Shown one piece after another: positions 2,852 through 20,790 of a stretch of DNA of 28,390 nt. The stretch's first letter is position 1; every line of letters starts with the position of its first letter. Under the pieces are notes generated by a model. That model was given only the letters and a program-made list of their open reading frames with translations, had not been told where the DNA came from and ran no database searches. The stretch is from IMG/VR virus record IMGVR_UViG_3300049810_001306, positions 1 to 28,390 of that record; one strand, 5' to 3'. The stretch comes from a virus. The position numbers and the translations under genes are program-made.

Positions 2852-4138
2852 ATGAGATACTCACAAATAGCATTGCCCAAGGTAGTTGAAATACAGCGAA
2901 TACCTCGTGCCCACCTTACTGAAAGCAACCAGGAAGGTGGTAAAAATACGCACCTGGAACATCTGGAAGATCTAATATTTAACAAAGGTCACAAAGGTGC
3001 CAAGGAGAGCATTGACTATCTTTACAGTGTATACGAAATGCTCAAAGGTCATAGCAAGGGAAAAACAAAGATGACTCGTAAGTGGGACGGTGCTCCTGCT
3101 ATCTTTGCTGGCATCAATCCTGAAAACGGCAAGTTCTTTGTGGGCACTAAAAGTGTGTTCAACGCAGAGCCCAAGATAAACTATACTCCTGCTGACGTTG
3201 ATCGTAATCACGGACACGCAGCAGGTCTAGCTAGCAAACTCAAAGTAGCACTCAAATTACTCAAGCCACTCAATTGGAATGGTAAAGTAGTACAGGGTGA
3301 CTTCCTCTGGACAGGTGAAGACCTTAACAAAGGCACGGTGTCAGGTGAAAACTATGTGATGTTTACACCAAACACTCTTACCTATGCGGCACCTGCCAAC
3401 TCAGAGTTAGGCAAACGTATAGCAAGCTCGCCCATGGGTGTGGTATGGCACACTGAGTATGTGGGCGGTCCCACTCTGCAAGACATGAGTGCCAACTTTG
3501 GATTTGACCATAAGCAACTGGGCGATAGCAAGGGGGTGTGGCAAACTGATGCCGGCATGCCTGATGTATCTGGTACTGCTACACTAACTCAGGCAGAGTC
3601 AGACGCAGTATACAAAGCCATAGCAGACGCAGACAACTACTGGGCAAGTTTGAATCCCAATGTGTTTACATGGCTAGACTCGCCAGAGGGCAAGGATTTT
3701 AAAGTCAGACTCAAGAAGCATGTAAACGACAGAGTTCGCGCAGGTAGTTTTGGCGATCCACAGAAGTTTGCCAAGGAGTTTTTACAAGACTATCTTGCAT
3801 ACCTACAGGGCAAAGCAGATAAACTTAAGACTGAGAAAGGCAAAGAGCGTTATCTACAAAAGCAAGTGGAGATAGCCAAATATATTCAGACAAATGCAAC
3901 TGACATGGCTACCACATATGATCTCTATATGAGAGTCATACAAGCCAAACTCATGTTAATCAGAAAGTTAGAAACACTCACTGATCTCAATGTGTTTGCT
4001 CAGGATGGCGCTGACTTTGTTGCCACTGGCGACGAAGGTTTTGTGGCAGTAGACCACATGGGTTCTGGCATAAAATTAGTAGACAGATTAGAGTTCAGCA
4101 GGCTCAATTTTGGATCAGGCAAGCCTGGGGGCAAATAA
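2852..4138 (+). CDS. Ligase/nucleotidyltransferase-like protein, probably head-internal
   Basis: The 428-residue protein carries motifs that resemble the covalent nucleotidyltransferase (DNA/RNA ligase, capping enzyme) superfamily. K77-W-D-G80 followed by A-P-A resembles motif I (K-x-D-G) with the adenylated lysine. V147-Q-G-D-F resembles motif III, E395-G-F-V motif IV, and I407-K-L-V motif V. The distance from motif III to IV is much longer than in ordinary ligases, so a helical insertion (about 245-375) would be needed. From memory the family is an uncharacterised phage family (perhaps DUF6267). The N-terminal 24 residues end in L22-T23-E24, a possible prohead protease site, so the enzyme may be packaged. 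No clear ribosome binding site precedes ATG 2852. The stop overlaps the next start (TAATG), so the genes are translationally coupled. Enzyme activity is inference. Confidence 0.7.
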   Translation: MRYSQIALPKVVEIQRIPRAHLTESNQEGGKNTHLEHLEDLIFNKGHKGAKESIDYLYSVYEMLKGHSKGKTKMTRKWDGAPAIFAGINPENGKFFVGTKSVFNAEPKINYTPADVDRNHGHAAGLASKLKVALKLLKPLNWNGKVVQGDFLWTGEDLNKGTVSGENYVMFTPNTLTYAAPANSELGKRIASSPMGVVWHTEYVGGPTLQDMSANFGFDHKQLGDSKGVWQTDAGMPDVSGTATLTQAESDAVYKAIADADNYWASLNPNVFTWLDSPEGKDFKVRLKKHVNDRVRAGSFGDPQKFAKEFLQDYLAYLQGKADKLKTEKGKERYLQKQVEIAKYIQTNATDMATTYDLYMRVIQAKLMLIRKLETLTDLNVFAQDGADFVATGDEGFVAVDHMGSGIKLVDRLEFSRLNFGSGKPGGK

Positions 4139-8824: not shown

Positions 8825-9121
8825 ATGCGTTTATCAGATCTAACAGAGGGCGTTGAATTATTTGAAGCCAGAATGGTCTGGCGTAAGGTCGGCAATAAAA
8901 TTACTCGTGCTGTAAGATGCACAGGCGGCCCCAGAAAAGGCAGAGTAGTCAAATCTGGTAGTGATTGCAGTAAGCCCATAGATATTAAAAAGCGTATGAC
9001 ACTCAAGAAAACAAAAGCTCGCATGGGCAAACGCATGAGTCGTAAGGCTCAGCGTAGTAAAAGAATTAATCCTGCTAGCAAAAGATTGCGTAGCATGAAC
9101 AGGCCCCTGAGAAAGAGATGA
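8825..9121 (+). CDS. Protamine-like packaged protein
   Basis: The 98-residue protein begins MRLSDLTE-GVELFE-A, with two successive L-x-E sites (L6-T-E8 and L12-F-E14). Everything after residue 15 is extremely basic, with about one third Lys/Arg. It includes V-R-C-T-G-G-P-R-K-G-R-V-V-K-S and P-I-D-I-K-K-R-M-T-L-K-K-T-K-A-R-M-G, blocks I recall as strongly conserved in marine T4-like phages. Two Cys residues flank the first basic block. Cleavage would leave a histone- or protamine-like peptide that could condense phage DNA in the head or bind host DNA after injection. The start directly follows the upstream stop and the end overlaps the giant gene by 4 bases. Confidence 0.82.
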   Translation: MRLSDLTEGVELFEARMVWRKVGNKITRAVRCTGGPRKGRVVKSGSDCSKPIDIKKRMTLKKTKARMGKRMSRKAQRSKRINPASKRLRSMNRPLRKR

Positions 9122-12100
9122 AGGCAAAAGATCTCAGAACACTGGAAGTATTCCTAGCTGAATATAGTGGCGTGGGTCAGCAACCTGTTAAACCTGGGGC
9201 TGCTCCCAGTGGCCCAGTTCCCAGTGGTCAACAAGCACTTGACACTGCAGATAGGGCAAAAGCAGAACGAGACAGAAAATCTGCAGGATTACCCAAGGAT
9301 GATGTTAATACTGATCTAAGAGCAAAAGCATCTGCTGGGGAATTATCTCAACAACCCAATGATACTACTGACGTTGAGCCCACCAGTGATGAAAAAGTAG
9401 TTAAACCACCTCAAAATTCAGGAAGTAATATCAGCAAAGTACAATCAACTGGTAGCCCCACAACTGGCAAGGGACAAAATCAAGCAGTATCCGAAACAGA
9501 CAAGCTCAAAAAATTTAAGCCCAGAGGTGCATTTGGCCGCAGTGCTGTTAAGAGAACACTTAAAAAGAAGTTGCCCACAGGCAGACTACTCAGGGAAGCA
9601 GACCAACCTGAGTTCATGATTGAGATAAACTTCAACAGCAAGGATACTGTCAAGAAAGCACTCTCAGGTCCAGTAAACTGTGGCTTTGAAGCAGAACTTA
9701 TCTTCCCCAGAATACAGCAATTTAATGATAACGACGATGCCTACGGTGATGATTTTGCCATGATAGACAGAATTAATAATTCTGAACATGTGGATGAGAT
9801 CAGAGATCTATACAAAAAGACTTTATTCGACTATGACAATGCCTATGGCGAAGCCTTCTTCGAATACCAAATGGAACAGATGTCCAGAGATTTTGAGGAC
9901 GAAGAATGGATCAATGACTTTGTAAATTATAGTATCGACGACAATGACATAGTAGATTACAGAAAAGAAACATTGGATACTGCCAAGGAAGACGACCCCG
10001 CCGAATATGAAGAGCGTCTTGATTGGGAAGAAGATGCCTGGGGCAGAGAGTTAGCAGAACTTCGTTACAAGGACGACATGCAGGAATATTGGATGGAGAA
10101 CTTGGACGATGTTAAACTGGAAAGAATGGTTAACAGATTTGAGGACAACAACAGATACGGCATCGACAACTGGATGATGGATAGTGGTGAAGCAGGCAAT
10201 GAATATTGGACAGACGCCAATGACTTACTACAGCAGGGTGATAGTGAATCTGAACTTTCGGGCAACCCCAAATACCAAGCCTATGAAGAAGTAGAGAAAT
10301 GGTTGTTTGATTGGGCCAAGATGAATAGCCATAATGCTGACATAGAAGTAGGAGGCTATCACGAAACTGAAAGTCATGATGGCTGGCGCATAGAAGAAGA
10401 TCAGAGTTTGGATGGTGACGGTGCTGGCTTTGAAGTTATTAGCCCAGTGTTTGACAACCCCAAAGACATGCTCAAGGAGATCCAGAGCCTGTTTGAGTAT
10501 GCCCAGGACGCCACAGAAACTAATCGCTCAACTGGCTTACATGTAACCATGAGTTATGCTGAAGAGTCAGATGTACCCACTAACATTGCCAAGACTAAAA
10601 TGTATGTGTTAAGTGGAGCTGACAACCAAGCCAAGGTATGGAACAGAGAGTTCAACTCATACAGCCAGAGCACCAAGGTTCAGGTCCTACAAGCACTCAG
10701 AGCCATAGCAACTGGTAACGCATCAGACGATAACATCAAAACCATGGACGACATGATTACGCAGTTTGATGCCACTGGTGAAGCAAACAAAGTTGGCAGA
10801 CAAAGCACAGTAAATGTCAAGCAACGCAAAAACTCTGCTGGCAATAGCCTGGTAGAGTTCAGAGCAGCCGGAGGTCCTGGTTACACAGGTAACTTTGATC
10901 AAGTAGCCAAGGATGTAATCAGATACAGTGCTACTATACAAGCAAGTTATGACGAAGATGCCTACAACCGTGAGTTTGCTAAAAAGATGTACAAGTGGCT
11001 ACAAGATGCGCAGGACGTGGAAGATCCGCAGGCTTACAGTGCTACCAAAGGATTAAGCCCACAGGATGTTTATCGTCAATCAACCGGTGATACTACTTTC
11101 GATGTAGACAATCATCCTCTCACAAACTACATGATGAAGTTTACTCACAGCACATTCCAGGACAACGTCAAAAAGACACTTACCAGATTCTTTAGTAGTC
11201 TCAAGAACCAACAAGAGTATCAGGCAAAACACAACCTCAATGAGTACGAAGAGAACCCAGAAGAAGTATATGCTGAGTTTAAGTCAAGCACTCGTGAAGC
11301 ACTAACTGACTTGATGGTATATTTGTCACTGAGCGCAAACACTGACAAGATGAGTACCAAAGAACTCATGGCTATCAGAAAACTCGTGAGTCAACATGGC
11401 ATCGATGCTGAACAGTTTGTTAAGGCACTCAAGCGTGATAGTGGTAACCCTAGGCTAATACCCGACCCCAGAGACAAGGCTGACCGTACCAGAATATTTA
11501 AGCGTGGCGGTAAGTTGATTGGCAAGGATCTCATGGCAGATGCACCTGAGAAGATGTCAATTTCTGTTGCGCCAGATCAGGTAGCACTACTAACAGCAGA
11601 TGGGCTGAGATACATGCAGCAATATAGCGACACTGAAGATGCGTACCTGCTCTTAAAGAAAACAGATTATAATTACATTCAGATGGAAATCAAGGCCCTG
11701 AACGAATTGTTAAATAAATCCAAGGCTAATCCAGACGATGCTGAATTAGATGTTGAAGTCAGAAAGACGGCATTTGATTTAAGCAAAACTGTCAGTACAC
11801 GATTCAACCGTGAGTTGGATGTGGAGCGCATTATAAATAAACATGGTTTACAATATGCTCTGATGTGGCAGAAACAACTTGCGCGTCCATATAATGATAC
11901 CAAGATGGCACAAAATTTAAAACAATTAGGAGTAGAAGTGAAACCCACAGAATCAGATGCACCCTTCGAGAGTTTGATGTCTAAGTTTGAAGGTAAGAGT
12001 TTACAGGAACAACTTACTATACTTGGCAAACTAGACAAGCAGAAGATTGATGAAGCTTATAAAAAAATTACTTTCAGAGAAAATACTGTGCCTGACAATA

Positions 12101-13905
12101 GGACAGTTACTATAGTTAATGATTTATTGAGTAAACATTTCCCAGCCAGCGATCTGAACAAGCAAATGGACGCATTTACTGCGATCCCCATGCCTGAAAT
12201 GATTGATAGCTTTAGATCCATTGAGCGCACACAGGGTCCTGATGCTTGTTGTAGAGGTGTATTATGTCAATTTATAAATTACTTACATCCCACATTAAAA
12301 GACCAAATAAACAGTGATTTCTGTGATGGAAAAACATCAGATTTAGGAAAGTCACAATGTAAGCCATGCAATGAAGCATGGCAAGGCAATCCTAAAATTA
12401 AAAAGACTGGGCAATGGAGCGGTAAGACTATCGCAGAACTACAAAAACTTGCGAGCTTACTAAGAAAAAAGGATAAGCGCACAGCCGCGGAACAATCCAA
12501 ACTCAAGCAGATTAATTTTGCGATTAGATCCAAGAGAGATTGGAAAGGCGACACCAAAGAAAATATTTCAGAAAATCTAGAGGAAGCCAAAGGCATAATG
12601 GGCAGAGTTGCTGGTGATAAATTTATCAAGGGAAATCAACAGTTGGAATTTCAGGAAGTAAAAGTCTATCCCGAAGAAAGCACCCAATATCAATCTGCTG
12701 AGGAGCGTGATCAAGCTATTAAATCTTTTGAAGAACAAGCGGGCCAGATCATCTGGACAAACAACCCCAATAAAGGAATGTTGGCTTTCGGTGTTGCCAC
12801 ACTTACAGATCCCCTTAATAATAACACGCCCACCTACTGGGGCAGATACTTTAAGCAAAAGACTACAAATATGATGGGTGTCTGGCAGAATAACCAAGTG
12901 CCTACTGGCTGGAAAGTGCAGAAGGCTGGGGCACTTAAACTAGATATTGGTATTGATCCGCAACATCTAATAAAAGTAGAAACTCCATTTGCTAGCATAG
13001 ATCAAGTTATTAATACAGTAAAAAAGAATAGCCAGGGCAACCCCTTGCAGAAAGAGTTGATATCGGGATTGCAACAAATAAAAGCAGGCCAAAATCCAGT
13101 GTTTGAAAATTGTGCTCAGCACATCCCAGCACTAAGAGATTACTTTGGTGAAATCATGGGCCCATGCGCACTCATGGCTGACATGGTTGGTGGACAAGCA
13201 GAGGACGCTAACCAAGCATTGCTTAAAGGTGCTGGTTGGGGCAATAGCCAGGTATTTTGGCCACAGGCTATGAATTATGCGCTGGTGGATAGTGTGTTTA
13301 TAGGACCGGACGGACAGGAAGTGGGTATAAGTAGTAAGGGCGGCAAAGGTGCCAAAGCAAGTGCTAAAAATATTGCTGATGCCATTGCAAAAGCACCACC
13401 AAAATTGATAAAAAAATATAAATTTACTGTAGCAATCATTCAACTGGTTGAACAATCATCAGCACAGGAAGGTCCTTTTAGGATTGCCGAATATCTCAAA
13501 GCGTTGCCTGCAGGACTGGAAAAAGAAATCATGGGCTATGTAAAAAGCTCAAAATCAGACTATGTGGGACTCAGTGATGATGCTAAGGAGCTTTTTAACT
13601 ATGGAACGCCCAAACAAGGAGCGCCTGGTTTTAACACTGGTTTGGCTCTTACTGCATTGCTAGCCAAGAAAGTAGCAAAAATAGTAAATGAAAACCCCAC
13701 ATTTAGTGCTGGCGCTTTGTCGTTTCTAAATCAATCAAGTATTGTACAATTATATTGCAAGATGGGAAAACAAGGAAATAATGCTAGAGTTACTGGATGG
13801 GACGCTATATATCCTCCCAACTTTAAGGGCAGAGTAGTATTGGATGGCAGTAAAAACTATTATAGTTCCAGAATTGGTGGCAAATTTGCCTTTGGATTTG
13901 TTTAA
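9118..13905 (+). CDS. Giant head-internal-type protein with amidoligase-like domain
   Basis: This is a 1595-residue protein. The leader ends V-F-L-A-E15, nearly the T4 IPIII F-I-A-E. Residues 16-155 are a Ser/Pro/Lys linker ending in L158-R-E160. Residues about 185-625 fit the COOH-NH2 amidoligase family (glutamine-synthetase-like fold): C-G189-F-E191-A-E193, D432-G-D...G-F-E439-V-I-S-P443, G473-L-H475-V and E580-F-R582 with G-G. A long acidic helical insertion (about 205-410) splits the domain. Cys residues at 1044, 1045, 1050, 1069, 1081 and 1084 could bind zinc. A possible internal cut follows L1154-E-E1156. The last 440 residues form a separate module with W-G-R-Y-F (1241-1245), a D-S-V-F...I-S-S-K-G-G-K-G stretch (1391-1411) and a YSSRIGGKFAFGFV end. 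The start overlaps the upstream stop (ATGA). Forming amide bonds on host or phage proteins or peptidoglycan is possible; the substrate is unknown. Confidence 0.82.
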   Translation: MKAKDLRTLEVFLAEYSGVGQQPVKPGAAPSGPVPSGQQALDTADRAKAERDRKSAGLPKDDVNTDLRAKASAGELSQQPNDTTDVEPTSDEKVVKPPQNSGSNISKVQSTGSPTTGKGQNQAVSETDKLKKFKPRGAFGRSAVKRTLKKKLPTGRLLREADQPEFMIEINFNSKDTVKKALSGPVNCGFEAELIFPRIQQFNDNDDAYGDDFAMIDRINNSEHVDEIRDLYKKTLFDYDNAYGEAFFEYQMEQMSRDFEDEEWINDFVNYSIDDNDIVDYRKETLDTAKEDDPAEYEERLDWEEDAWGRELAELRYKDDMQEYWMENLDDVKLERMVNRFEDNNRYGIDNWMMDSGEAGNEYWTDANDLLQQGDSESELSGNPKYQAYEEVEKWLFDWAKMNSHNADIEVGGYHETESHDGWRIEEDQSLDGDGAGFEVISPVFDNPKDMLKEIQSLFEYAQDATETNRSTGLHVTMSYAEESDVPTNIAKTKMYVLSGADNQAKVWNREFNSYSQSTKVQVLQALRAIATGNASDDNIKTMDDMITQFDATGEANKVGRQSTVNVKQRKNSAGNSLVEFRAAGGPGYTGNFDQVAKDVIRYSATIQASYDEDAYNREFAKKMYKWLQDAQDVEDPQAYSATKGLSPQDVYRQSTGDTTFDVDNHPLTNYMMKFTHSTFQDNVKKTLTRFFSSLKNQQEYQAKHNLNEYEENPEEVYAEFKSSTREALTDLMVYLSLSANTDKMSTKELMAIRKLVSQHGIDAEQFVKALKRDSGNPRLIPDPRDKADRTRIFKRGGKLIGKDLMADAPEKMSISVAPDQVALLTADGLRYMQQYSDTEDAYLLLKKTDYNYIQMEIKALNELLNKSKANPDDAELDVEVRKTAFDLSKTVSTRFNRELDVERIINKHGLQYALMWQKQLARPYNDTKMAQNLKQLGVEVKPTESDAPFESLMSKFEGKSLQEQLTILGKLDKQKIDEAYKKITFRENTVPDNRTVTIVNDLLSKHFPASDLNKQMDAFTAIPMPEMIDSFRSIERTQGPDACCRGVLCQFINYLHPTLKDQINSDFCDGKTSDLGKSQCKPCNEAWQGNPKIKKTGQWSGKTIAELQKLASLLRKKDKRTAAEQSKLKQINFAIRSKRDWKGDTKENISENLEEAKGIMGRVAGDKFIKGNQQLEFQEVKVYPEESTQYQSAEERDQAIKSFEEQAGQIIWTNNPNKGMLAFGVATLTDPLNNNTPTYWGRYFKQKTTNMMGVWQNNQVPTGWKVQKAGALKLDIGIDPQHLIKVETPFASIDQVINTVKKNSQGNPLQKELISGLQQIKAGQNPVFENCAQHIPALRDYFGEIMGPCALMADMVGGQAEDANQALLKGAGWGNSQVFWPQAMNYALVDSVFIGPDGQEVGISSKGGKGAKASAKNIADAIAKAPPKLIKKYKFTVAIIQLVEQSSAQEGPFRIAEYLKALPAGLEKEIMGYVKSSKSDYVGLSDDAKELFNYGTPKQGAPGFNTGLALTALLAKKVAKIVNENPTFSAGALSFLNQSSIVQLYCKMGKQGNNARVTGWDAIYPPNFKGRVVLDGSKNYYSSRIGGKFAFGFV

Positions 13906-14063
13906 TGGACCATTTAACTGAGGTCAACAAGACATATTTAGGACACCTAGCTCATGCTTGGAGCATGGCATTTGCTTTACTCATACATGGCTTGTGTCCT
14001 TGCTTGTTGGAAAATTACGCTAGCAATAAGATGTGTGACCATGAGACTGACTCAATTAAATGA
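13905..14063 (+). CDS. Small DUF6356-like membrane protein
   Basis: A 52-residue reading frame starts in a TAATG overlap with the giant gene and ends 23 bases inside the superoxide dismutase gene. It reads M-D-H-L-T-E-V-N-K-T-Y-L-G-H-L-A-H-A-W-S, then a hydrophobic stretch with A-F-A-L-L-I-H-G-L-C-P, then a polar end. From memory this matches DUF6356, a small family with one membrane helix found in bacteria and phages, whose members begin in a similar way with H-L-x-x-V-N-x-T/S-Y. It fills the otherwise empty 135 bases between two clear genes. Function unknown. Too short for most gene callers, so it may be missed in related genomes. Confidence 0.65.
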   Translation: MDHLTEVNKTYLGHLAHAWSMAFALLIHGLCPCLLENYASNKMCDHETDSIK

Positions 14064-14577
14064 GGAAAAGCAAAAACTAGCACTGGAGAAACTCCAGGCA
14101 GATCGCTCAGACTACGAACCATTTCTCAGTAAAGAAAGCATTGACATCCACTACGGTAAACTCGCCAGGGGTTATGTAGACAGATTCAACGCAGGCGAGG
14201 GCGACAAAGATTTTAACCAGGCTGGTGCTTTTTTGCACAACATCTATTTCCCACAGCTCAAGGAGCCTGGTGGATCGAACATTCCCAGAGGTGCTAGTTT
14301 AATGCTCATTAATTCAAAACACGGCAGTTACGACAAGTTTAAGTCTGAAGTAACCAAAGTAGCAATGTCTATACAAGGCTCAGGCTGGGTATACATGGCT
14401 CGCAACGGTGAAATTAAAACTATTAAAAATCATGCCTTGCGTTCAGACATAGCAATGCTCATAGACTGGTGGGAGCATAGTTGGTTTACCGACTATGGAT
14501 CAGACAAGTCCAAGTATCTGACTAACTTCTGGAAGGCTGTGGATTGGGAAGTAGTGAACCAGAGGATACTCACATGA
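14041..14577 (+). CDS. Iron/manganese superoxide dismutase with packaging-type leader
   Basis: The 178-residue protein matches the Fe/Mn superoxide dismutase family, which turns superoxide into oxygen and hydrogen peroxide. Y-E-P-F-L-S-K-E-S-I-D-I-H37-Y is the first helix with metal ligand H37. A-F-L-H66-N-I-Y-F gives the second ligand, and D142-W-W-E-H146 the third and fourth. G-S-G-W (113-116), G-S-Y-D-K-F-K and the final N-F-W-K-A-V-D-W-E-V-V-N-Q-R are also typical. The gap between H37 and H66 is shorter than in bacterial enzymes, and the chain is somewhat shorter than the usual 190-200 residues. The start at 14041 gives MRLTQLNE, ending in L6-N-E8 like the neighbouring leaders. The longer in-frame ATG at 13954 would add an unlikely Cys-rich stretch in the frame of another gene. 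Fe versus Mn preference cannot be judged. Confidence 0.88.
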   Translation: MRLTQLNEEKQKLALEKLQADRSDYEPFLSKESIDIHYGKLARGYVDRFNAGEGDKDFNQAGAFLHNIYFPQLKEPGGSNIPRGASLMLINSKHGSYDKFKSEVTKVAMSIQGSGWVYMARNGEIKTIKNHALRSDIAMLIDWWEHSWFTDYGSDKSKYLTNFWKAVDWEVVNQRILT

Positions 14578-18037: not shown

Positions 18038-18976
18038 ATGCAAATTTCGGGTGGATTACAATTAAGTGGTGGTATAAATTTAGTACCAGGTGGATCATCA
18101 CCCACACCAGACCCCTATGTGTTTCAGGGCAGTAATTATGGATATGCGTCAGGTGGTTCTGGTGGAGGTGTCTTACAAACTGCTATAAATAAATTTTCGT
18201 TCAGTTCAGATAGTAATGCATCAGATGTTGCTGATTTATTTGTAAGTTTCAATAATTCAGCAGGTCAATCCAGTAATAATAGTGGGTATGCATCAGGGGG
18301 TCACAGCCCCAGTTATACAAACATCATTCAAAAATTTACCTTTACAATTGATGGAAATTCCACTGATGTTGGAGATTTAACTATAACCAGGAAGGGTCCA
18401 GCAGGGCAGTCTTCTTCTGAATCTGGATATTCATCAGGTGGTAGTGCTCCGCCCTACGACGACACAATTGATAAGTTTCCGTTTGCATCGGATGGTAATG
18501 CCACTGACGTGGGTGATATCACACTTGCCAGGGAAAAATCTGCAGGTCAGTCATCGACTTCCAGTGGTTACACATCAGGTGGTCTTGCTCCGCCCTTTGT
18601 AAACACAATTGACAAGTTCCCATTTGCGTCAGACGCAAATGCCACTGATGTGGGGGATTTAGCACATAATTTATTTTTAAGCGCTGGACAATCCTCGACT
18701 ACTAGTGGTTACAGTTCTGGTGGCAGGCCCGCGCCTTCGTCAACAATACAAAAATTTAGTTTTAGTAGTGATGGCAATGCCACTGACATTGGTGATTTAA
18801 CTGTAGCAAGAGATGACATGGCAGGACAATCATCAACAGCTAGTGGATATTCAGCAGGTGGGGCAGACAATGATAAAGATACTATAGACAAGTTCCCATT
18901 TGCGTCAGATAGCAATGCCACAGACGTAGGGGATTTGCCAGTGGCGTCATCCTCATTGTCTGGCCAACAATACTAA
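18038..18976 (+). CDS. Kelch-like repeat fibre protein, complete
   Basis: The 312-residue protein starts MQISGGLQLSGGINLVPGG, which matches the start of the LamG protein at 1375, followed by a short Ser/Pro linker. Six units of about 48 residues follow, each with I-D/Q-K-F-x-F-x-S-D, N-A-T-D-V-G-D-L, A-G-Q-S-S and G-Y-x-S-G-G. Six units would fit a six-bladed propeller. It ends shortly after the last D-V-G-D-L with S-G-Q-Q-Y, like the protein at 1-603. The N-terminal peptide likely docks it to the particle and the repeats bind a surface ligand. The ribosome binding site is AGGAG before ATG 18038. The strong terminator at 18991 follows 15 bases after the stop. Confidence 0.85.
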   Translation: MQISGGLQLSGGINLVPGGSSPTPDPYVFQGSNYGYASGGSGGGVLQTAINKFSFSSDSNASDVADLFVSFNNSAGQSSNNSGYASGGHSPSYTNIIQKFTFTIDGNSTDVGDLTITRKGPAGQSSSESGYSSGGSAPPYDDTIDKFPFASDGNATDVGDITLAREKSAGQSSTSSGYTSGGLAPPFVNTIDKFPFASDANATDVGDLAHNLFLSAGQSSTTSGYSSGGRPAPSSTIQKFSFSSDGNATDIGDLTVARDDMAGQSSTASGYSAGGADNDKDTIDKFPFASDSNATDVGDLPVASSSLSGQQY

Positions 18977-18990
18977 AAGCACCAGACCAA

Positions 18991-19016
18991 AAGAGCCCGG
19001 TTTTGCCGGGCTTTTC
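18991..19016 (+). terminator. Rho-independent terminator
   Basis: AGCCCGG (18994-19000) pairs with CCGGGCT (19006-19012) around a TTTTG loop, with A residues before and T residues after. It is the strongest terminator in the window and separates the late structural genes from the next unit. Confidence 0.92.
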
Positions 19017-19045
19017 TTTCTGTAACAAAATCAGCAACTTAGAGC

Positions 19046-19073
19046 TTGACATCTGATCATTCTGTGCTATAAT
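19046..19073 (+). promoter_or_regulatory. Sigma-70-type promoter
   Basis: TTGACA (19046-19051) and TATAAT (19068-19073) are perfect consensus boxes with a 16-base spacer, 30 bases after the terminator and 36 bases before the ATG at 19110. Likely an early promoter read by unmodified host RNA polymerase. Confidence 0.88.
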
Positions 19074-19109
19074 ATATACATACTAAAGAAATAGTTGAAG
19101 GAATCAACC

Positions 19110-19670
19110 ATGGTATCATTTACATCAGATCAATTGGCACTCCAAGCTTACATCGAACAGGCTAACGCCAAGCATATTGCTCGTGCTGAATCAGAGGGCT
19201 GGACCTTCTATACTGTCACAGTGTCAGATCCAGTACACTGGGCCAGAGGCGGTATTTTCACTATCGAACAATATGAGCGTGATAGCCTGATATCATACAT
19301 CTCAGATGCGCACAAGGATGCCTATGGTTTCCGTCCTCGTGGTTGCAACTATTCAGAGTGGACAATGGCTCAGCTTGAGGAAGAAGCTGATCGCATGAGC
19401 GATGCGGTTACTCAAGCTATAGAAGCCAATGAGGTGGAGAAAAATCAAACTGTAGAGGCATTTGAGCAGAGTGTTCAGAATATGATTGGCATGGGTGCAG
19501 GCAACCGTGCTACTGCTCTCAGATGGTTGACAGACGCTGAAACGTTCCATAGCCCACAGTGTGTTGAGAGTTTTGTGTGGGAGCAGGGCATTCTATTTAC
19601 TGACTATGGTCGCACCCTGGTCACTGAACTTGCTGATATCGTGACATATACTGATTGGGAGGCCGCGTAA
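19110..19670 (+). CDS. Unknown early-type protein
   Basis: The 186-residue protein is the first gene after a consensus sigma-70 promoter. The start is ATG 19110 with GAAGGA at 19097-19102; the in-frame TTG at 19095 overlaps that site and is less likely. It is mostly helical and acidic. A middle segment with I-S-D-A-H-K-D-A-Y-G-F-R-P-R-G (about 65-79) followed by S-E-W-T-M-A-Q-L-E-E-E recalls a widespread phage protein family of unknown function that I cannot name. No membrane segment or leader. It is followed by DNA ligase after 1 base, so a role in early DNA metabolism or host takeover is possible. Confidence 0.78.
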   Translation: MVSFTSDQLALQAYIEQANAKHIARAESEGWTFYTVTVSDPVHWARGGIFTIEQYERDSLISYISDAHKDAYGFRPRGCNYSEWTMAQLEEEADRMSDAVTQAIEANEVEKNQTVEAFEQSVQNMIGMGAGNRATALRWLTDAETFHSPQCVESFVWEQGILFTDYGRTLVTELADIVTYTDWEAA

Positions 19671-19671
19671 A

Positions 19672-20790
19672 ATGATAGTCAAACAGACATTATATAAGTT
19701 AGACAGCAAAGGGAAGGTTCGTGAATGGCGCATGGAAATAGACGGAGACAGATTTCGAACTGTAAGCGGGTTAATTGATGGGCAACATGTGACATCTGAG
19801 TGGAAGCAGACTCATGCCAAGAACGTGGGCCGTGCCAACGCTACTACCGCTGGGGAGCAGGCTATTGTAGAAGTAGACGCGCTGTATACCAAACGCTTGG
19901 AAGGCGAGTACCACACTGACATCAAGAACGTTAGCAAGGCAAGATTCTTTAAGCCCATGCTGGCGGCTAAGTGGGAGGACCGCAAGGATAAAATTACGTA
20001 CCCTGTAATGGTACAACCCAAGTTAGATGGTGTCAGAGCAATCATTAATCGTGATGGTATATGGAGTCGTGCTGGCAAGAAGATCTTAGCAGTGCCTCAC
20101 ATTGAGCAACAGTTGGCATTACTATTTGTAAGGTTCCCAGACATGGTCCTGGACGGTGAACTTTACAACCACAACCTCAGGGACGACTTCAATAAGATCA
20201 TTAGTTTAGTTCGCAAGACTAAACCCACTGAGGCAGACTTGGCAGAGAGTGCTGACACAGTAGAGTTCCATACCTATGACTTTGCTCACTACACTGACCT
20301 TACTTACTTTGATCGTGCCAGGTCGCTCAGAGACTTTGTAGACATTAACTCAGAGAAGATACCCAGCGTGGTATGGGTACAGACTGACTCAGCAGACTCA
20401 GAAGCAGAAGTAGACGACCTGTTTGGTAGCTATGTGGAGCAGGGCTTTGAGGGCGGCATCATTAGGCTCAACGGTGTGTATGAGCAAAAGCGTAGTAATA
20501 ATCTACTCAAACGTAAAGATTTCGAAGATGCTGAATTTGAAATTGTGAGCGTGGAAGAGGGCCAGGGCAACTGGAGTGGTTACGCCAAGACACTGTTTAT
20601 CAAACTTCCCGACGGTACTATACAACAATCTGGATTGGCAGGCAATCAGGCGCACCTCAGACAAGTACTCGCAGAAAAAGATGCTTATGCTGGCGGAGAA
20701 GCTACTGTGCAATACTTTACTAAAACTCCCGATGGCAAACTCAGATTTCCAGTAGCAAAAGTTCTGTTCAAAAGTAACAGAGATATTTGA
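19672..20790 (+). CDS. ATP-dependent DNA ligase
   Basis: The 372-residue protein has the full set of nucleotidyltransferase motifs: K117-L-D-G-V-R (motif I, adenylated Lys117), V159-L-D-G-E-L-Y (III), F-H-T-Y-D-F (IIIa, 199-204), F259-E-G-G-I-I-R (IV) and L278-L-K-R-K (V). A C-terminal OB-fold follows (E-G-Q-G-N-W-S-G). The N-terminal 80 residues resemble the WGR-like domain seen in phage ligases (L-Y-K-L-D...K-N-V-G-R-A-N-A-T-T). It seals nicks in DNA during replication and repair. It is transcribed with the unknown gene at 19110; ATG 19672 is 1 base after that stop. The next gene has its own promoter overlapping the end of this one. Confidence 0.94.
   Translation: MIVKQTLYKLDSKGKVREWRMEIDGDRFRTVSGLIDGQHVTSEWKQTHAKNVGRANATTAGEQAIVEVDALYTKRLEGEYHTDIKNVSKARFFKPMLAAKWEDRKDKITYPVMVQPKLDGVRAIINRDGIWSRAGKKILAVPHIEQQLALLFVRFPDMVLDGELYNHNLRDDFNKIISLVRKTKPTEADLAESADTVEFHTYDFAHYTDLTYFDRARSLRDFVDINSEKIPSVVWVQTDSADSEAEVDDLFGSYVEQGFEGGIIRLNGVYEQKRSNNLLKRKDFEDAEFEIVSVEEGQGNWSGYAKTLFIKLPDGTIQQSGLAGNQAHLRQVLAEKDAYAGGEATVQYFTKTPDGKLRFPVAKVLFKSNRDI

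Follow-up and report, generated by a model that had tools for sequence, protein, structure and literature searches.

A candidate head-targeted precursor with an amidoligase-type domain and an exchangeable C-terminal module in an IMG/VR virus record

The stretch of DNA analysed here, hereafter the window, is the complete IMG/VR virus record IMGVR_UViG_3300049810_001306 (28,390 bases), and our subject is a giant open reading frame (ORF) of 1595 residues at positions 9118-13905, which a first-pass annotation had pointed out and which is present free of internal stops. We consider it probable, by a moderate margin of confidence, that this ORF encodes a head-targeted precursor of a T4-type large phage, which a prohead protease would cut into two parts, a packaged enzyme of amidoligase-like type and a nuclease-like cargo protein that can be exchanged. 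The proposal starts from domains, conserved residues, a motif at the joint, alternative modules and split and fused forms, all of them observed by sequence and model, and from these we infer packaging, cutting and both enzymatic activities. The annotation had taken the protein as one internal-type unit; its leader is borne out, while the single unit is not, as a separate C-terminal module (residues 1157-1595) had been overlooked.

We propose the following series of steps. By analogy with T4, the leader at the N-terminus, which resembles those of the T4 internal proteins, would bring the chain into the prohead core, and a gp21-type prohead protease would, on the same analogy, cut it at LAE/Y (residue 15), LRE/A (160), IDE/A (979) and LEE/A (1156), the slash marking the putative cut. 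Cutting would release two products, the C-terminal module and the amidoligase-like enzyme. They may be packaged with the DNA and, one step further removed from the data, enter the host on ejection. There the target of the amidoligase would be a protein or peptide of host or phage origin, on which it would form an amide bond, and that of the C-terminal module, probably a nuclease of the restriction-endonuclease fold, would be nucleic acid. The likeliest role would be that of an early host-takeover or counter-defence set, composed of a protein-modifying ligase and a nucleic-acid-acting enzyme. Proteins that phages package and inject are at work during the first minutes of an infection, and the enzymes known among them are few; if true, the proposal would extend their list by a protein-modifying amidoligase type and by two interchangeable, uncharacterised nuclease-like cargo families.

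The amidoligase-type domain

The initial homology search with the window protein found a single phage among 50,697 records, Agrobacterium phage Atu_ph07 (two entries). Nothing in Pfam exceeded its cut-off, the only match in PHROGs was a weak one to phrog_13007 in the middle region, and the amidoligase part had no match in Pfam, PHROGs or NCBIfam. The blocks that had suggested the amidoligase family, i.e. CGFEAE, DGDGAGFEVISP, TGLHV and VEFR, are nevertheless all found in the window protein, and the residues singled out for scrutiny (E191, E193, E439, H475 and R582) are exactly numbered. Their loss in homologues was sought and none was lost, all five being identical in 14/14 aligned domain sequences (21-34% identity to the window; some are near-duplicates), and the invariant set in these sequences extends to E426, D428, R510, N513 and E580 (window numbering). 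The profile search that had been recommended placed the protein in the family by way of its orthologues and not by the window sequence itself. With a curated cut-off of 22 bits for PF12224 (Amidoligase_2), the 500-residue protein of Atu_ph07 (P0002) scores 30.2 and a 1693-residue relative (P0003) 24.3; a match at E<=0.1 is present in 10 of the 14 domain sequences, and the cut-off is exceeded in four of nine related virus records. As its own sequence fails PF12224, we term the window protein a divergent relative, recognised through orthologues, and not a curated member of the family; its amidoligase part is visible through them only. The acidic helical insertion described between the blocks is likewise present, with 29.7% Asp and Glu, a net charge of -43 and a mainly helical model.

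A predicted structure without a glutamine-synthetase-like fold had been named as the result that would speak against the family, and the model built from the 14-sequence alignment (mean predicted local distance difference test score, pLDDT, 72.7) does match glutamine synthetases. VIA-align placed it on 4bax with Z 10.8 over 199 residues at 3.7 A, Z reached at least 8 for 183 of 464 chains, and the best 50 rows were all glutamine synthetases or close kin; glutamine synthetases also headed the Foldseek results (probability 0.96). A search of PDB sequences with the domain profile (hmmsearch) gave no meaningful match. A glutamine-synthetase-like fold for residues 161-615, and kinship with the amidoligase family, are therefore well supported, and the activity suggested by the conserved residues would be that of an amidoligase, i.e. 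amide-bond formation dependent on adenosine triphosphate (ATP).

Module A, module B and the exchange of the C-terminal slot

The last 439 residues, which we call module A, are the best-conserved part of the precursor (69% to P0003), and in one related record (L005) this part stands alone as a 464-residue protein. A scan for module A returned 93 relatives, 80 of which were kept, and the upstream DNA was examined for 66 loci. Left out of these were L029 and L030 (contigs shared with others), L059-L061 and L079 (the match begins one residue later), and L071, L077, L084, L086, L092 and L094-L096. With near-duplicates taken together, the 66 loci amount to 40 distinct contexts, of which 8 are fused. 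Module A stands by itself, in an ORF able to start 9-17 residues ahead of it, at 54 of the 66 loci, and is fused, with the frame open for 600 residues upstream, at the other 12.

The model of module A is of good quality (pLDDT 87), and no solved structure is clearly related to it. VIA-align of its half 160-442 gave weak alignments to MspI, HincII, HinP1I and EcoRV (Z 4.7 to 3.3), the MspI alignment (Z 4.7) covering 158 residues and none of 992 chains reaching Z 5; EcoRV, HincII and MspI are grouped in one branch in PMC4081073. In the model, E1345, D1391 and S1405-x-K1407 lie on a helix-strand-strand arrangement in the order seen in PD-(D/E)XK enzymes, and D, S and K of D1391-x13-S1405-x-K1407 are invariant in 26/26 module A sequences. 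The canonical D...(D/E)xK is absent from module A, serine replacing Asp/Glu. The module A profile had no meaningful match among PDB sequences by hmmsearch; Foldseek aligned mainly the N-terminal part, to elongation-factor-P domains (probability 0.98, E 0.085), and scored no restriction enzyme well (MvaI, probability 0.02). BFVD yielded ten viral proteins at E<=0.001, among them Q5GQJ7 of Synechococcus phage S-PM2 and a 370-residue Atu_ph07 protein (E 1.2e-8), none named for a function. Judged by the model, module A may be a restriction-endonuclease-fold nuclease, and given the non-canonical serine and Z scores below the level that shows kinship, we use 'nuclease-like' as a lead.

In Atu_ph07 (L001), a hypothetical gene of 370 residues (18613-19725) overlaps by 4 bases a D12-class adenine DNA methyltransferase gene (19722-20699), and its product has the stretches DYGEI and NVKSGSGSG, reminiscent of module A. 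Because of this overlap and the 370-residue Atu_ph07 protein in BFVD, which agrees with the gene in length alone, we considered a full restriction-modification system and do not claim it: hhalign of the gene product against the module A profile gave a probability of 0.4%, and neither D12 methyltransferases nor N6_N4-type ones over the cut-off occurred in any of 10 records.

In four related records (L010, L014, L015 and L106) the C-terminal slot of the amidoligase protein is filled by an unrelated module, module B, and in L011 and L012 by a divergent form of module A (hhalign 99.9%). That modules A and B form one family was rejected at the level of sequence profiles (hhalign probability 0.3%). 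Module B has GPGE ... D-x9-E-x-K invariant in 9/9 sequences, which is the canonical PD-(D/E)XK pattern (E...D...ExK). It had no match in Pfam, or among PDB sequences by hmmsearch, and we call it nuclease-like at the level of the motif. Free-standing forms of both modules follow similar genes, as named by eye: an IMP-dehydrogenase-like gene precedes A (L005) or B (L108), a nucleotidyltransferase-like gene with GGFDPLHSGH precedes A (L072, L099, L100) or B (L117), and a halogenase-like flavoprotein gene lies before or near A (L043, L066) and B (L110). Among 12 records picked for carrying either module, A is present in 7, B in 5 and both in none. By sequence, the C-terminal slot is exchangeable between at least two families. 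The parts can also be encoded apart, as in G006 (189 kb), where the amidoligase (1182 residues, leader ...LRE/A) and module A (453 residues) are separate genes, two proteins against the one chain of the window. In L011 (8022-12699) the precursor gene appears as two overlapping ORFs (736 and 824 residues) divided after the amidoligase domain, which may be a frameshift, a sequencing error or a real split.

Leaders, candidate cleavage sites and head association

The start of the precursor had been likened to T4 internal protein III, and the two compare well (MKAKDLRTLEVFLAE/Y versus MKTYQEFIAE/A in T4 IPIII and IPII). The T4 prohead protease cuts after the glutamate of its sites, which in the T4 record read IAE/A (IPII and IPIII), ITE/A (IPI), LTE/A (gp23) and LRE/S (gp24). 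For T4 Alt, PMC5694885 gives the cuts as ITE-6 and LTE-619. The 500-residue Atu_ph07 amidoligase protein (AUZ94978) has a candidate site, LTE, at residue 13. A motif of this type, [LIVF]xE/[AS][KR]G, stands at the start of module A at all 66 examined loci (54 alone, 12 fused), and its stricter Leu/Ile version at 54 of them; these residues precede the search query and so were not part of it. Examples from free-standing forms are MRAKEFLSES/KG, MRFYDLVFEA/KG and MRANQFITEA/KG, in which the slash stands ahead of the query's K and the cut is proposed one residue earlier, after E. Free-standing module A proteins look head-targeted and cut by a prohead protease because their leaders and sites are of the T4 type, and the fused forms, as read from their sequences, keep this type of site at the joint. 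Module B alone also carries leaders (MRATQFIKE/A in L108, MFVNELFE/N in L110, MKIKDIINE/D in L117, MRLHHLFE/D in L132 and LFE/D in L109), and two of its fused forms retain (L/I)xE just upstream (LTE/S in L106, IFE/S in L010). In the whole window protein, strict matches to (L/I)xE(A/G/S) number three, at 158, 977 and 1154, and these are the three proposed inner junctions, i.e. N-terminal to the amidoligase domain, within a block that relatives conserve, and at the module joint. Head-type leaders occur in 8 of the 29 window ORFs against 0.8 expected in shuffles, a count that uses a chosen downstream ATG for three ORFs (8432, 14041 and 15088) and falls to 5/29 with the first listed starts. A rule that combines leader and site, M[RK]...[LIVF]xE/[AS], would be of use in cataloguing packaged cargo by sequence alone.

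The surroundings of related genes also point to the head. In L017, as judged by eye, the amidoligase gene adjoins gp23-, gp22- and gp21-like genes and its product has an N-terminus resembling that of the core-type protein there; in Atu_ph07, for which PMC6102473 reports a virion proteome of 131 proteins, an annotated portal gene lies two genes away. The 1182-residue amidoligase of G006 starts with MRYSQIKQALREAE and ends with NTIKRLAGLV, a tail like the scaffold protein ends KRLAGL (L017) and RKLAGLSNK (L146), and also KLAGL. In the 340-kb record that encodes P0003, a gp21-type protease (L146 6085-6714; PF03420, E 5.8e-25) is encoded next to genes resembling those for major capsid, scaffold and portal proteins, and PF03420 is present in the L099 record too.

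Several observations weigh against the cleaved, packaged precursor. LxE[AGS] matches in the protein number 3 versus 2.8 by chance, so that the argument is one from placement and conservation alone and not from number; the site at residue 15 has Tyr at P1', unseen among the T4 sites examined; the window protein lacks a PF12224 match at E<=1, and its domain alone one at E<=0.1; the Foldseek match to glutamine synthetases is weak (E 0.018, TM-scores about 0.2); PF03420 occurs in only two of the nine related records, any of which may be a fragment; and the nuclease reading of module A depends on Z 4.7 and a non-canonical S-x-K.

The first of these points would suit a multidomain protein of the virion or of ejection that stays uncut, its LxE sites unused and its chain acting as one 'polyvalent' protein, as would the retention of fused forms at 12 of the 66 module A loci. 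The junction site is, however, kept in 12/12 fused loci and is the same as in the leader of 54/54 free-standing forms, and G006 encodes both parts separately, and we regard an uncut chain as unlikely. Less likely again is a cytoplasmic amidoligase without packaging, which would modify peptidoglycan or make a small molecule during infection, e.g. against superinfection. PMC10580990 repeats such a role for phage amidoligases, citing Iyer 2009, classes the PF12224 genes of OM43 phages as auxiliary metabolic genes and cites a cell-wall role suggested for phiEco32; Porphyromonas and Christensenellales phages with annotated amidoligases fit as well. The head-type leader, the leader-bearing neighbours, the head clusters of L017 and Atu_ph07 and the scaffold-like tail in G006 all argue against it. 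The head gene context and that same tail would agree with an enzyme of head assembly, itself a core protein, which joins head or core proteins by amide crosslinks. We find this improbable, since no crosslink partner or other evidence was seen, ATP would be needed and 5 of the 9 related records lack a PF12224 match (although the domain is present in that of L012, and each may be a fragment). A non-catalytic relic, in which the domain is structural filler, would explain a window sequence below the PF12224 threshold, and is most improbable, as ten or more positions of catalytic type are identical in 14/14 sequences at 21-34% identity.

Beyond the window, we advance tentatively, at rather less than even confidence, that T4-type large phages may encode cargo polyproteins, in which a single leader would bring a chain of several enzymes into the prohead and from which the head-maturation protease would there make an amidoligase and a swappable nuclease, the set being injected into the host. 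Under such an arrangement genes could fuse or split without loss of packaging, because the leader and site are also those of the cargo genes that stand alone. If true, this would be a modular effector system with a C-terminal part exchanged between phages, and it makes the testable claim that the head-maturation protease is a polyprotein-processing enzyme for effectors.

Gene layout, neighbouring genes and comparison with known systems

Table 1 Layout of the precursor gene and its immediate neighbours in the window
Feature	Coordinates	Strand	Remarks
Small, strongly basic protein with leader	8825..9121	+	4-base overlap with precursor start
Precursor ORF, 1595 residues	9118..13905	+	Free of internal stops; full-length relative P0003 has 1693 residues
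Head-type leader MKAKDLRTLEVFLAE, putative cut LAE/Y after residue 15	9118..9162	+	Compare T4 IPII and IPIII, MKTYQEFIAE/A
Variable basic linker, residues 16-160, LRE/A at its end	9163..9597	+	
Amidoligase-type domain, residues 161-615	9598..10962	+	E191, E193, E426, D428, E439, H475, R510, N513, E580, R582
Acidic, mostly helical insertion within amidoligase-type domain, residues 200-408	9715..10341	+	
Middle region, residues 616-979, closing with conserved IDE/A	10963..12054	+	Weak phrog_13007 match
Connector, residues 980-1156, LEE/A at junction	12055..12585	+	
C-terminal module A, residues 1157-1595	12586..13902	+	E1345, D1391, S1405, S1406, K1407; free-standing in most relatives
Fe/Mn superoxide dismutase, gene directly after precursor	13954..14577	+	Head-type leader if start is 14041

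The connector holds a Cys-rich stretch (residues 1044-1100, window 12247-12417) that is mostly missing from P0003 and is possibly a metal-binding insertion particular to the window phage. A gene similar to the small basic one lies upstream also in L004, L010, L011, L012 and L015. The gene in the slot after the precursor codes for a superoxide dismutase. The forms in the window and L004 (13273-13812) have the Fe/Mn fold and head-type leaders, those in L014 (15904-16449) and L106 (7224-8360) the unrelated Cu/Zn fold, so that two unrelated enzymes of the same activity share one slot. Elsewhere in the window, a protein at 605-1363 has a GNAT acetyltransferase domain (PF00583, 24.1 bits, cut-off 20.7) after the head-type leader MKLTDIIQED and is, by its sequence, a candidate for another packaged protein-modifying enzyme. 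The same gene run includes a DUF6267/phrog_455 protein (2852-4138, E 1.8e-102), a relative of which, by eye, lies upstream in L004 too. Two genes, at 172-603 and 18038-18976, encode proteins of repeated SGG...IDKFPFASD.NATDVGDL units that may belong to the tail or a fibre; the first is probably truncated at the start of the window.

Amidoligase_2 (PF12224) belongs to the COOH-NH2 ligase group, reportedly that of Iyer et al. 2009. The window protein resembles it in the conserved ExE, E, TG(L/F)H and EFR blocks, in the glutamine-synthetase-like fold and in having relatives over the cut-off, and differs in the big acidic helical insertion between blocks one and two, the head-type leader and the fusion to further modules. 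Module A resembles type II restriction endonucleases of the EcoRV/HincII/MspI branch in residue order and a weak alignment (Z 4.7-3.3), and is unlike them in having Ser for Asp/Glu and no sequence match. The T4 internal proteins IPI-IPIII and Alt, which are packaged, ejected and cut by gp21, share with the window protein a short leader ending in (L/I)xE and the type of cut site. The T4 internal proteins are, as far as known, single-domain, whereas the window chain holds several modules with candidate sites between them. Alt is further alike in being an enzyme cut at both ends (PMC5694885).

Among titles and abstract openings, we found no packaged amidoligase or prohead-protease-cut effector polyprotein described, a scope that does not establish absence in print; in PMC7824862 the word amidoligase appears once, within a reference. 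In the literature so covered, the nearest published concept is that of the polyvalent proteins of phages and conjugative elements (Iyer et al. 2017, PMC5512222), from whose main text the terms 'amidoligase' and 'glutamine synthetase' are absent. In that text, processing is ascribed to built-in zincin-like metallopeptidases, no match to which was found in the window protein with Pfam, and here we ascribe it to conserved sites of the prohead-protease type. The likeness lies in large, multidomain proteins that are proposed to be packaged and injected, that combine unlike enzymatic domains and for which processing into units is proposed (PMC5512222). The window protein may share the combination of unlike activities, in that it joins an amidoligase-type domain to an unrelated module with a predicted second activity.

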